Origin: Capnocytophaga felis
Lineage (GTDB): Bacteria > Bacteroidota > Bacteroidia > Flavobacteriales > Flavobacteriaceae
Length of the DNA: 64,000 nt
Direction: 5' to 3'
Assembly (NCBI RefSeq): GCF_009684755.1
Contig: NZ_BLBC01000003.1
Span: 114,104 to 178,103 of the forward strand
Position numbers and translations under genes: made by a program. The notes under the pieces were generated by a model. That model searched no databases and was not told the DNA's origin. It saw only the letters and a list, made by a program, of their open reading frames with translations. Of the stretch, positions 52,243 to 58,517 are shown piece by piece; position 1 is the stretch's first letter, and each line of letters begins with the position of its first letter.

Positions 52243-52332
52243 CTTTTTATCTCAATGCAAATATAAACCAAGCAAACCAAATAAACAAAATTTCTTCTTA
52301 CAAGCATAATCCTGAGTTTTAAATGGTTTTAA

Positions 52333-52369
52333 AAAAGAAAAAGCTGCCCGAAAAGTATCGAACAGCTTC
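52333..52369 (-). terminator. Probable terminator after susD
   Basis: Minus-strand arms beginning AAGCTG and ending CAGCTT are separated by an imperfect inner part and followed by a T-rich run. Less regular than others here. Confidence 0.55.
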
Positions 52370-52398
52370 TTTTACTTCTGAATTACTTAAAGTCTATG

Positions 52399-54240
52399 TT
52401 AATTTCCTCCATAATTTGGATTTTGCTTATCAAACCACAAACGTTGTGTGTTGAGAATTTGAGGATCATTCACACCTGATGTAAATCCTTGTTCATCAAT
52501 TGCCTTTTTAGTGTTTTGGTAGTTTTTGTCATCTTCGGTTGGTGTACGTACCAAGAAGCGACGAGGAAGCACCAAATCGTTTCCAGCAGATTTTAACTCT
52601 CCCCAAGCCAAATAAGTACTATTCTTTTTAGGATATCCTGAACGACGAACTGTTGTCCAAATATCTCCTGAAGCAGCGGTAGCATAATTGATATACTGCT
52701 GAATATACACTTTCTCCAATCCGTCAGTAGTTACATTGTATGCTGGTTGCATCAGTAAATTATCTATTTCTCCTTCTTTGAGTTTAATACTTCCCGCTCG
52801 CCTGTCTGCCTCCGTTGCATATACAGGATCTTCTTCATAATAAGCCAATTGGTTATTTTTAGCAATAGCATCCATACGCTGAACTGATAAACGTACTCCC
52901 TGATTGAAATAATCTTGAGCCGATTGAGGAAGATTTGCTCCCAAAAGTTTAAACTCTGCTAAAAATAAATTTGTTTCCCCAGATGATCCCAAAACGATGT
53001 TAATGGGAGGGTAATTATCCTTCACCTCAATGACACGTCCTCCTGGTTTAGTTGGATAAGAGTAATTATAGCCCGTACGTGTATTTCTTTCTGAGTAAGA
53101 AGAAGTTGACGCGTATGTTTTTTCAACTCCTTTTAAACTGATTTTATTACGTTCTCCTTGTTTGAAATATTCATCGTAAGTGGCATCATTTGTTTTGTCG
53201 GGTGAAATAGGCACCCCCACGTAACGTACCCAAGGTTCACCTGGTGCTTTCCAGCTATCAAATGTATTGTCTGGTTTTAAATTTACGTGCTTTTTAACGT
53301 GAGGCGGAAGATCTTTTTTTGCTTCAGCAAAGGCATCAATCACCTCACTATTAAAATGATTTTTAGTGAAAATAAAACGAAGACGAGGGTCTTTATTTGC
53401 TACCATAAAATCAACGATAGGTTCCGCCGCTGAGCCTGGCTGTGTTTCGTTGCCTGTACCATAATATTTGATGCTTCGTCTGTAAACAAAATCATCAGCC
53501 AACTCATTCATATATCCCACTGGAGAATTTGCAACCTCTTCAGCTATCTTCATAGCTTTACTTAGATTTGCGTGGACTAATCGGGCTGCTATTTTCAATT
53601 TCAACAAGTTACAAAATTTAGCCCATTTTTTGTAATCACCGTTGTAAACCACGTCCTGAGCTCCCAATTGCAATTGACCACTTGTTGTCAAAAGTTCTGC
53701 AATGGCTTCATCAAGTTCTTTCAACCAAGTATCAAAAAGCTGTTCCTGACTGTCATACTCAGGAGTAAGTAAAGGAGGCGTGGTGTACGGAGCTAAAGCT
53801 GCTTGTGAATACACCAATGAACCGTATTTGTCTGTTACGCTTAATGCAGGATGAATTACAGCTGGAAAAGTAATGGCTCGTAAGGCTCTAAATTTCTCTT
53901 TCTCAGCATCAGGCATTGCATCAATTCTTGCACGAATATCACGAGCATTCGGGAATAAAGCTCCGTATAAATTATGCCCACCTGTATTTTCCATTTCATT
54001 CATTCTTAAACCATTACCTAAACCAGTAGTAGTCAATTGGCTCCACGGAAAAACATAATCAAAATTGTCATAATACCAAATGGTATAATCATCAGTGTAC
54101 ATTGTTTCAATTACTTTCGCCGTTGAAAAACGCAAATCTGGCTCTGAAAGGGTTGATGGATCAGTATTTTTATCAGCAAAATCTTCACGACTACACCCCA
54201 CAGCCAACACAGTTGTTATTAATAATACTATTTTTTTCAT
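52399..54240 (-). CDS. SusD/RagB-family outer-membrane nutrient-binding lipoprotein
   Basis: The 613-residue lipoprotein (MKKIVLLITTVLAVGC, Cys16) is the surface lid that partners the SusC barrel. Its start NKNTDPSTLSEPDLRF-like region (DKNTDPSTLSEPDLRF) and lack of the classic SusD_RagB ends suggest the SusD-like_2 group. Helical TPR-like repeats are apparent. The ATG at 54240 is preferred to an in-frame TTG at 54249. It begins 11 bases after susC, so a stop in susC would probably lower its expression. Ligand unknown; no glycan-degrading enzymes flank it. Confidence 0.85.
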   Translation of the reverse strand: MKKIVLLITTVLAVGCSREDFADKNTDPSTLSEPDLRFSTAKVIETMYTDDYTIWYYDNFDYVFPWSQLTTTGLGNGLRMNEMENTGGHNLYGALFPNARDIRARIDAMPDAEKEKFRALRAITFPAVIHPALSVTDKYGSLVYSQAALAPYTTPPLLTPEYDSQEQLFDTWLKELDEAIAELLTTSGQLQLGAQDVVYNGDYKKWAKFCNLLKLKIAARLVHANLSKAMKIAEEVANSPVGYMNELADDFVYRRSIKYYGTGNETQPGSAAEPIVDFMVANKDPRLRFIFTKNHFNSEVIDAFAEAKKDLPPHVKKHVNLKPDNTFDSWKAPGEPWVRYVGVPISPDKTNDATYDEYFKQGERNKISLKGVEKTYASTSSYSERNTRTGYNYSYPTKPGGRVIEVKDNYPPINIVLGSSGETNLFLAEFKLLGANLPQSAQDYFNQGVRLSVQRMDAIAKNNQLAYYEEDPVYATEADRRAGSIKLKEGEIDNLLMQPAYNVTTDGLEKVYIQQYINYATAASGDIWTTVRRSGYPKKNSTYLAWGELKSAGNDLVLPRRFLVRTPTEDDKNYQNTKKAIDEQGFTSGVNDPQILNTQRLWFDKQNPNYGGN

Positions 54241-54251
54241 TTCTTTCAATT

Positions 54252-57200
54252 TTAAAAATCAATTGCTACGCTGAATGTATAAGAAGCTGTATATGGTATA
54301 AAACTTCTTTCAAAAAAAGATTCTGTACTAGTTGTTCCTCTGAAACTCTCAGGGTTCAATTTATTAGGCAACGAATTATACAGATATCCAAGATTACGCA
54401 AATTTACTCCTAAATACAAATTTTTCATTTTCAACCTCTTACTCACTTCACTTGGCAAAGTATATCCTAATGATATGTTACGAAGTGCCACATAATTTAC
54501 CTCGTGGAACCAATCATCATTTACCACTCCTTGTCCCCACGAATTTTTAAAGTAAGTATGTGTACTTCCGTGTGAGGGCTCTATGTATCCCTTATCCATT
54601 GCTTCTTGGTAGGTTAATCCTCCTACATCTTGAGTTGTTCCTGCCGGAGTTTGTACGTTTGTTCCAGGAGCAAAAACACCCTCAACAATTACACCATCTG
54701 AAAAGGTTTGCCCCTTTGTATCAGCGTATTGTGACGTCCAGGTAATACCTCCGTGCTGGGCATCACGAGCTTTTAATGAAGTATTTAAAAATCCGTTAGC
54801 TGTACCATATCTATTTGAGAAAGAAGCCATATATCCTCCAAAACGAGCATCTAACATCACAGATAACGAAACTCCCTTGTAAGTGAATGTATTTTTTAAA
54901 GACCCTTCAAAATCAGGCTGCATTTTCCCAATTTCCTCCACTTCACCACTTCTTTCATAATAAGCCGTTCTTCCATTATTAGTCCACTTCAAAATTGGCA
55001 TTCCATTTCTCGGATCGTCAATGTTATTTCCATTAGCATCTTTGGCTTGAAATTTTTTAGGAGCACTGTCCGACATCAAAACACCGTACTCTCCTCCTTC
55101 AAAAGCCACCGAACCTATGCGGAAGTTACCATATGCTGGCGTTCCTCCCAGTATCTTGTAAGCTCCATAATCTTTATGTAAATCGGTAACTTGGGTTCTG
55201 TTTCGCCAATAATTAAAGGAAACATCCCATACAAAATTATTAGTGCGAATTGGCTTGGCATCTACCTTCAACTCAAAACCATAATTTCGTAAAGTACCGA
55301 TGTTGGTAAGCAAATTCCTATATCCAGAGGCATTCGGAAGTGGAATATCCCCAATCTGGTTGGTAATATATTCGTCATAATAAGCCACATCAAAGCCCAA
55401 TCGATTATTAAAAAAGCGTGCGTCAAGCCCCACCTCATAGGAATTTTTGCGTTCAGGTTTAATGCTTTTATCAACCAAAGTAGTTGAGACTTCATTCAGG
55501 TAAATATTATTTCCTCCATTCATCTCATAAGAACCGAGCGAATATCCTTTGTTTATGGAATAAGGGTCGGTGTCGCTACCCACTTGTGCCCACGAAGCTC
55601 GAAGTTTCCCGAAAGAAACCCAAGACGGAAGTCCAAGTGTTTGACTAAATACCCAAGAAGAACTAACCGATGGATAAAAGTAAGAATAATTACCTGTTCC
55701 ATCAGTATAAACTAAAGCTGATGACCAGTCGTTACGCCCAGTTATATCTAAAAATAACTGGTCTTTCAATGAGAATGATGTCAAAAAATAGAGTGAATTA
55801 ATCTGTTTAGTTCCAAAGACTCTACCTGCATCAGCTATAGGTGTTTTTTTCGAATTTTTCAAATAGTAACGTCCTGGAACCACCAATCCTCCATCGGTTC
55901 TTACACGAGTTTCAGACTTTTCCTGATTCCAAATTTCTCCTCCAACAACTACATAAGCCGAAAGACCTTGTGTAATGTCTTTGGTATAATCCAACGAAAT
56001 TTTTCCAGTTTGGCTTACATCTCTATAATGATAAAGGGCATAATAGCCTCCTTCATTGGCATATCCGCTACCCAATTCTTTATTTTCTTGCTTTATGGTA
56101 TAGTAGTTAAGATTTCCTTCCAAACGTACATTCAATCCTTTCAAAATTTCAGCAGATAATTTAACAATGGGACGAACCACATTTTCATTACGTACTTGGT
56201 TATTTTTATTGTAAGCAAACCAAATGCTTTTGCCTGGAACATACGCATAATCATCACCATAATTTGAATTTGGAAGTCCTCCGTGTTTTGCTTGCCAATA
56301 CTGATTTTGTTTATATTTTTCTACATCGTACTCATTAGTCCAAGTACCATCCAAAAAATTGGCAGCCAAATCGCTTCGTGGATTTTTCCCTTCGGAAGAA
56401 GTATAAGAAACTGATGCTTCAGCTTTTAACCAAGATGCAAGATTATAAGCTCCTGAAAATAAAAGTGAATTCCGTGTAAATCCATTATTAGGGAGTACTC
56501 CTGTACGTTGGTTGTACGAATCGGAAAGATAAAAATTTCCTTTTTCGTTACCTCCGGTTAAGGAGACTGAAGTGGTGTTACTAACCCCTAAATTATATGC
56601 TTTGAGCACATTATTTTTGTACGGACGATAGGGTACTAATTTCCCATCATAGTCCACAATCATTGTATTTTCATTGAATCTGGGACCGTATCCTAATCCT
56701 TCTCTCGGATGATTCACCCGTGATGGATTTCCGTTGGCATCGTAATAAAACTGCTCGGTATCAAATCGAAAATACTGCCCGCTGGCATCAGTTTTTCCGT
56801 AGCCGATATATCCTGCCATAATTCCTTGTCCGTATTCGGTTTGTAACTCAGGAGTAGCGTACACGTGATCAACCCCTAAGGAGTGCTTTACAGACACCCC
56901 CAAGCCTTTCGCTTCCGAACCGTTTTTAGTTTCGATTAAGACCACTCCATTAATCCCACGCGAACCATAAAGGGCTGTTGCCGCAGCTCCTTTTAAAACG
57001 GAAACGCTTTTATAATCATCAGGATTTAGATTTTTTAAGATGTTACCAAAATCATTAGCGTTTGATTCCCAATCGGCACTTGCCCCAGAAGTATTATTCT
57101 CCAAAATCACGCCGTCAATGACAAAGATAGGTTGGTTATTGTTGGAATTCAATGAAGAAACACCACGTACCTGTATTTTCGCATTCCCGAACAATCCCCC

Positions 57201-57671
57201 ATCAGAACTACCGATACTTACCCCAGCCGACTCTCCTTGCAAAGCCGATACAGGATTTACCGTATTGGTCTTGGCGAGTTCTTCACCTTTCATTTCGGTC
57301 ATCGCGTACCCTAATTTTTTAGTTTCCCGCTTGATTCCCAAAGCTGTAACAACAACCTCGCCAAGTTGTTGCGCCTCTTCTTTTAGTACCACATTGATTT
57401 TTAAGGATTTACCCCCCCCCACTACTTTTTTGGTTTGGGCTTGAAAACCGATGTAGGTAAACTCAAGCACATCACCCTCCTGAAGTTGAAGGGAATAATT
57501 TCCGTCAAAATCGGTGGAAGTCCCCTTTGATGTTCCTTTCACCAAAATACTCACCCCTGGTAGTGGGCTACCTGACTCATCTGTAACAGTTCCTGTTACG
57601 GTCTTCACCTGTGCCAAGATAGGAAAACTCACTATAAACAGCACAAGTAAACATAAAACTTTCTTGCTCAT
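54252..57671 (-). CDS. SusC/RagA-family TonB-dependent importer with internal G tract
   Basis: The 1139-residue barrel has a signal peptide (MSKKVLCLLVLFIVSFPILA), a CarboxypepD_reg-like domain (24-100), the TonB-dependent plug (LGEVVVTALG, then VRGVSSLNSNNNQPIFVIDG) and a large barrel ending in FSVAIDF. It imports a ligand captured by the SusD partner, powered by TonB. Codons for V84-G85-G86-G87 contain nine consecutive G (57412-57420). One extra G gives TAA at once; one fewer gives TAA after three more codons. The frame is open (on) as sequenced. Both states are consistent with phase variation; this is inference. The gene has its own promoter. Confidence 0.93.
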   Translation of the reverse strand: MSKKVLCLLVLFIVSFPILAQVKTVTGTVTDESGSPLPGVSILVKGTSKGTSTDFDGNYSLQLQEGDVLEFTYIGFQAQTKKVVGGGKSLKINVVLKEEAQQLGEVVVTALGIKRETKKLGYAMTEMKGEELAKTNTVNPVSALQGESAGVSIGSSDGGLFGNAKIQVRGVSSLNSNNNQPIFVIDGVILENNTSGASADWESNANDFGNILKNLNPDDYKSVSVLKGAAATALYGSRGINGVVLIETKNGSEAKGLGVSVKHSLGVDHVYATPELQTEYGQGIMAGYIGYGKTDASGQYFRFDTEQFYYDANGNPSRVNHPREGLGYGPRFNENTMIVDYDGKLVPYRPYKNNVLKAYNLGVSNTTSVSLTGGNEKGNFYLSDSYNQRTGVLPNNGFTRNSLLFSGAYNLASWLKAEASVSYTSSEGKNPRSDLAANFLDGTWTNEYDVEKYKQNQYWQAKHGGLPNSNYGDDYAYVPGKSIWFAYNKNNQVRNENVVRPIVKLSAEILKGLNVRLEGNLNYYTIKQENKELGSGYANEGGYYALYHYRDVSQTGKISLDYTKDITQGLSAYVVVGGEIWNQEKSETRVRTDGGLVVPGRYYLKNSKKTPIADAGRVFGTKQINSLYFLTSFSLKDQLFLDITGRNDWSSALVYTDGTGNYSYFYPSVSSSWVFSQTLGLPSWVSFGKLRASWAQVGSDTDPYSINKGYSLGSYEMNGGNNIYLNEVSTTLVDKSIKPERKNSYEVGLDARFFNNRLGFDVAYYDEYITNQIGDIPLPNASGYRNLLTNIGTLRNYGFELKVDAKPIRTNNFVWDVSFNYWRNRTQVTDLHKDYGAYKILGGTPAYGNFRIGSVAFEGGEYGVLMSDSAPKKFQAKDANGNNIDDPRNGMPILKWTNNGRTAYYERSGEVEEIGKMQPDFEGSLKNTFTYKGVSLSVMLDARFGGYMASFSNRYGTANGFLNTSLKARDAQHGGITWTSQYADTKGQTFSDGVIVEGVFAPGTNVQTPAGTTQDVGGLTYQEAMDKGYIEPSHGSTHTYFKNSWGQGVVNDDWFHEVNYVALRNISLGYTLPSEVSKRLKMKNLYLGVNLRNLGYLYNSLPNKLNPESFRGTTSTESFFERSFIPYTASYTFSVAIDF
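57412..57420 (-). repeat. Nine-G homopolymer in susC, candidate phase-variation tract
   Basis: Nine C on the plus strand (nine G in the coding sense) at codons 84-87 of susC. I saw no other G or C run this long in the window. Sequence on both sides is set so that any one-base slip ends translation within four codons. Confidence 0.75.
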
Positions 57672-57709
57672 ACTTTATCGTTTATTAAGTTAATACTCAA
57701 AAAGTCCCA

Positions 57710-57717
57710 CAAAAGTA
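57710..57717 (-). promoter_or_regulatory. -7 promoter box of susC
   Basis: The minus strand reads TACTTTTG, matching TAnnTTTG, 38 bases before the ATG; no clear -33 box. Confidence 0.45.
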
Positions 57718-58485: not shown

Positions 58486-58517
58486 AAATCCCAGTAATGA
58501 GCTCATTACTGGGATTT
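58486..58517. terminator. 32-bp perfect palindrome between convergent genes, likely terminator
   Basis: Sixteen-base arms meet at GAGCTC with no extra loop (AAATCCCAGTAATGAG and its complement). T tract is short, but the position between convergent genes fits termination on both strands. Confidence 0.7.

Follow-up and report, generated by a model that had tools for sequence, protein, structure and literature searches.

Does a run of nine consecutive G residues inside the coding sequence of an outer-membrane importer act as an on/off switch for that importer? The question is raised by a susC gene of Capnocytophaga felis that lies in a 64,000-nucleotide stretch of contig NZ_BLBC01000003.1, referred to here as the window. 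Species of Capnocytophaga are oral commensals and opportunists, and SusC/SusD pairs decide the diet of Bacteroidota and can be within reach of phages and antibodies. An earlier note on the window had read the tract as making this SusC phase variable. When the tract is placed into the context of its gene, its genome, and its genus, we consider it very probable that it is a contingency (phase-variation) switch.

The G tract and the reading frame of susC

The gene, its partner, and the elements discussed below were assigned as follows.

54252..57671, minus strand: susC, 1139 aa, SusC/RagA TonB-linked outer-membrane protein (TIGR04056, 580.8 bits)
57348..57599, minus strand: CarboxypepD_reg-like (CPD) domain, PF13715, residues 25-108, containing the tract
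57412..57420, minus strand: G9 homopolymer, codons 84-87 of susC (V-G-G-G), the proposed slipped-strand switch
56943..57317, minus strand: TonB-dependent receptor plug domain, PF07715, residues 119-243, lost in OFF forms
52399..54240, minus strand: susD partner, PF12741/PF12771, with its ATG 11 bases past the susC stop
57710..57717, minus strand: TACTTTTG, a Bacteroidota-type -7 box (TAnnTTTG) identified by consensus match, 46 nt upstream of the susC ATG

Assignment of the gene to the SusC/RagA family follows from a score above the curated TIGR04056 cut-off of 368.25, from the presence of both CPD and plug domains, and from the neighboring SusD gene, which starts (ATG 54240) at the distance from the susC stop (54252) that the earlier note had given. 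The tract itself, correctly placed by that note at codons 84-87, is flanked on the coding strand by GTAGT and TAAATCC; its first G is gene position 252, the third base of codon 84, and it lies close to the end of the CPD domain. As had also been claimed, no comparable run of G or C occurs nearby, the window holding runs of 1-5 and the single run of 9.

Tract length sets the reading frame of the window gene. When the length was edited in silico, the frame stayed open with G6, G9, and G12, and was closed after 86, 89, 87, and 90 aa with G7, G8, G10, and G11, respectively, so that the early closure foreseen for both eight and ten G is confirmed. At 35% GC, early stops in the two wrong frames are on their own no surprise. 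When synonymous codons were shuffled within the window susC, 1.3% of the shuffled sequences contained a run of nine.

The -7 box TACTTTTG is likely to be the susC promoter. An invertible promoter was sought at the window gene as well, and the search returned one imperfect, AT-rich 14-nt pair near the promoter, which is unconvincing; phase variation of the Bacteroides type, in which SusC/SusD expression depends on inverted repeats, was rejected for this gene on the same ground. Further upstream, a perfect 16-nt inverted repeat without a loop (58486-58517) lies between an outer-membrane beta-barrel gene and an AcrB gene and is probably a bidirectional terminator.

Tracts at the same site across the genome and the genus

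In the 2.88-Mb genome, assembled in 37 contigs, G runs of exactly nine occur five times and a run of eight occurs once. As extrapolation from shorter runs gives a chance expectation of about 0.2-2, the count alone is only mildly unusual. It is the placement that exceeds chance by far: four of the five G9 runs occupy one shared codon (83 or 84) of four SusC genes, namely the window gene and those designated C5, C7, and C8, and chance is rejected because of this same-site recurrence. In all four the context resembles AACCAAAAAAGTAGT-G9-TAAATC, one G more or less leads to a stop at 86-89 aa, and a SusD gene follows, while the barrels of the pairs compared share background DNA identity only. Around their tracts, the window gene (57412-57420) and the C7 gene (L222) share 37 identical bases, the genes having otherwise diverged, and it is possible that gene conversion has spread the switch between them.

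The comparison with related genomes that the earlier note had called for was extended to 20 Capnocytophaga genomes, in which runs of at least eight G were collected, nearly all sequences were retrieved, and 186 distinct tracts were classified with a SusC N-terminal profile. Tracts of G8-G12 were found at the CPD end of 34 SusC genes, with observed lengths of 8, 9, 10, and 12; as these genes are homologous, the tracts are not 34 independent events. Twenty-nine are in frame (ON) and five out of frame (OFF), and as the sample holds one genome per species, the length differences recorded are those between species or genes. A second tract position, directly behind the signal peptide, was found in three SusC genes (L050, L180, and L179/L220), and only L179/L220, with G8, is out of frame there. 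All six OFF SusC genes, counted over both positions, carry a single lesion, with downstream frames open for 942-1058 codons and a normal outer-membrane C-terminus, and, judged from these frames, they do not resemble decayed pseudogenes. One of them, G019 C8 from another species, is the closest relative of the window gene (90% aa identity) and has G8. Length thus varies between relatives, at the level of species, and OFF copies (5/34) are otherwise intact. The ON share of 29/34 shows that function is kept, and selection alone would give the same. Some ON genes tolerate an additional residue (VVGGGGK with G12, and VTEGGGK with an in-frame GAA), so the loop accepts a change in length.

Could a glycine loop and shared ancestry account for these tracts? 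A glycine-rich turn might be needed at this site, and GGG codons might have been copied among SusC paralogs by duplication or gene conversion with no role in switching. The genes are indeed homologous, GGG[K/N] is a common peptide, and the 37 bases shared with the C7 gene are what a conversion patch would leave. The glycine triplet is, however, not required, as the G003 orthologue of the C8 gene has VTTTGK (TTTG) at the tract position and G008 has VTGAGN. Codon use also speaks against this explanation. In a codon-blind search within the genus, in which any Gly codon was accepted at GGG[K/N] in tract context, 34 sites were recovered, 26 as pure G runs and 8 with mixed codons. All but one of the pure runs lie in SusC (25/26; the exception is L048), and the seven mixed sites that were read (G019:C64 left out) comprise three in SusC and four in short unrelated frames. 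A pure G run therefore encodes 25 of the 28 SusC GGG[K/N] sites, a figure that comes from related genes and so is no count of independent events, against a GGG share of 53/340 among Gly codons in window genes. Most third codon positions on either side are variable, and at many of them the variation amounts to 1.0-1.9 bits. With four of five G9 runs at one SusC codon and 25/28 sites as homopolymers, the tract is longer and more localized than chance would have it. As neutral copying also leaves OFF alleles in otherwise intact genes unexplained, we regard ancestry with a glycine loop as an unlikely account of the tract.

The earlier note had named non-repetitive glycine codons for the same residues in relatives as an observation that would count against switching. 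Such codons are present at the syntenic locus of the closest genome, G003 (GGT GGT GGT), but in the genus as a whole homopolymer sites outnumber mixed ones by 25 to 3. At the same locus G008 has GGA GCT GGT (Gly-Ala-Gly) and no tract. As both relatives lack it, the tract is a lineage-specific gain and not a fixed feature of the locus, and by these comparisons it is gained and lost between close species. In a family-wide search of 397 Flavobacteriaceae genomes, three of them Capnocytophaga, the pattern was found in three genomes: the source genome and two of one other genus, whose matches (L097-L099) are not in SusC frames.

A second alternative would place the variation after replication. RNA polymerase or ribosomes could slip on the G run and yield a fixed mixture of full-length and truncated protein from one genotype, which would also soften an OFF state; transcriptional slippage can arise at long homopolymers. 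The differences in length between genes, and G8 with its OFF frame in the nearest relative, are nevertheless changes in the DNA itself, and slippage of this kind is improbable as the role of the tract, even if it may coexist with a heritable switch. Least credible is a sequencing or assembly artefact in which lengths are miscalled and every copy is truly in frame, because even though draft or metagenome assemblies (G019, G006, and G015) are the source of every OFF copy, so that an assembly error at 8-10 G is possible for each, the tract is present in independent assemblies that include the single-contig genomes G003 and G017. The phase-variable reading of SusC is thus supported by tracts at the same site, by their varied lengths, and by five out-of-frame intact copies, and further by the OFF state of G019 C8, the gene closest to that of the window.

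Receptor exchange behind the 5' part of the gene

The window susC/susD locus sits between a UlaG-like gene and an AcrB gene. These neighbors are 94-99% identical at the amino acid level in G003 and 86-96% in G008, but they enclose different SusC/SusD genes. In a DNA comparison, identity breaks at window 52266, which is 133 bases beyond susD, and at 57304, at about codon 123 of susC, and the locus is thereby divided into two parts.

52267..57303, minus strand: cassette that was exchanged, starting near codon 123 of susC and ending shortly after susD
57304..57717, minus strand: 5' module that was kept, with promoter, signal peptide, CPD domain, and tract, and largely G003-like as far as gene position 240

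The sequence enclosed by the break points has no counterpart at the syntenic locus in G003, but a SusC/SusD pair from a different G019 locus matches it at 83% identity. As G003 and G008 are collinear throughout the window locus, the change can be assigned to the lineage of the source genome. Site by site, the window susC is G003-like at positions 1-240, mixed at 270-360, and G019-like from 360 onward. Arrival of the whole 5' part together with the G019-like cassette is rejected on the basis of positions 1-240. The bin that holds the tract is G019/C7-like; the tract itself may either have been introduced through a small patch of gene conversion or have arisen in place.

A comparable break is seen at the C5 gene, which lies between genes that we take, from reading their sequences, to be fucI-like and fucP-like. 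From 400 bases upstream to about +315 of susC, tract region included, this gene is 96-100% identical to G003, and past +315 identity falls sharply to about 62%. At the same locus (L289 12090-17016 compared with L288, L309, and L310), the pair in G008 is of the G003 type, and G006 lacks SusC/SusD altogether.

Comparison of the window and C5 loci indicates that the switch-bearing 5' module stays and the receptor is replaced. Two exchange events in one lineage are suggestive of a module-cassette system and no proof of it. It could be speculated, tentatively, that surface variation here has two parts, a fixed switchable 5' module and a receptor cassette (plug, barrel, and susD) swapped by homologous recombination at the conserved start of the plug. 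If so, an incoming SusC/SusD pair would become phase variable at once. Neither the retained module nor the replaced receptor had been predicted by the earlier note.

Proposed switching, its precedents, and other G tracts

For the window gene, slipped-strand mispairing at replication would add or remove one G. Full-length SusC would be made with G9, and also with G6 or G12; the other two length classes would give a stub of 86-90 residues that ends in the CPD domain. As the stub ends before the plug and barrel, no receptor would be expected in the outer membrane. SusD, presumably encoded on the same mRNA, would lose its SusC partner and perhaps be lowered by polarity. The switch would be reversible. 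As many genomes have several SusC genes with a tract at the same codon, these could toggle independently, and the cells of one clone would thereby come to differ in the receptors they carry. The benefit could lie in bet-hedging over substrates or in escape from phage, antibody, or bacteriocin, which is plausible by analogy.

Switching of this kind has precedents in part. In Neisseria meningitidis, the TonB-dependent receptor systems HmbR and HpuAB are switched by poly-G within the open reading frames of hmbR and hpuA (PMC3786947). The likeness extends beyond the intra-ORF tract on a TonB-dependent receptor, as HpuAB also pairs the receptor with a lipoprotein partner; the difference is that those are haemoglobin receptors of a betaproteobacterium, whereas Capnocytophaga has SusC/SusD proteins of Bacteroidota with a tract at the same site in many paralogs. 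SusC/SusD clusters of Bacteroides fragilis phase-vary through the invertase Tsr0667, in a shufflon described by Nakayama-Imaohji (2009), as cited in PMC4747536 and PMC11868660. According to these secondary accounts, the protein family, the phase-variable surface expression, and the presence of several clusters per genome are shared, but B. fragilis relies on site-specific DNA inversion, and in Capnocytophaga it is the tract length that changes. Campylobacter jejuni has poly-G contingency loci (PMC8355987). Sets of G tracts in surface genes of an AT-rich, host-associated genome are the common element, and the genes are different ones (LOS, capsule, and flagella modification). To our knowledge, tract positions in C. 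jejuni are not shared between paralogs as they are in Capnocytophaga SusC.

Poly-G-switched TonB receptors and inversion-switched SusC are thus already known, and poly-G-switched SusC in Capnocytophaga was not found reported. A literature search that covered few subscription papers or preprints returned none joining Capnocytophaga with slipped-strand mispairing, which leaves priority unproven, and its co-mentions of Capnocytophaga and phase variation were incidental, as judged by titles and counts. With a genus-wide set of switches, if true, annotation would be mistaking genes in the off state for broken ones, isolates of equal gene content would differ in their receptors, and a single amplicon assay would suffice to read which receptors are on in natural populations. 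The tracts would offer a directly testable contingency-locus system in Flavobacteriia.

G tracts also occur in promoter spacers, which in Neisseria are contingency loci. Ten Capnocytophaga tracts are flanked by TTAA[C/A] on one side and TAnnTTTG on the other; at G8-G9 the whole spacer measures 20-22 nt, and at G12 and G15 it measures 27-28 nt (G000:C13:80988-80996, as L010 and L224; L055, L075, L106, L146, L150, L157, L166, L235, and L283). The first of these is the fifth G9 of the source genome, upstream of a lipoprotein-like gene, and in several cases lipoprotein or outer-membrane genes follow the tract. Such tracts are candidates for transcriptional phase variation through promoter spacing. 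Very long G runs were seen in other Capnocytophaga open reading frames, L155_1187 (G21) and L282_1191 (G17). Finally, a G10 run immediately follows a specificity domain (PF01420) of the type I restriction-modification kind (L103, G003:C1:1230671-1230679) and marks a candidate phase-variable restriction-modification system.
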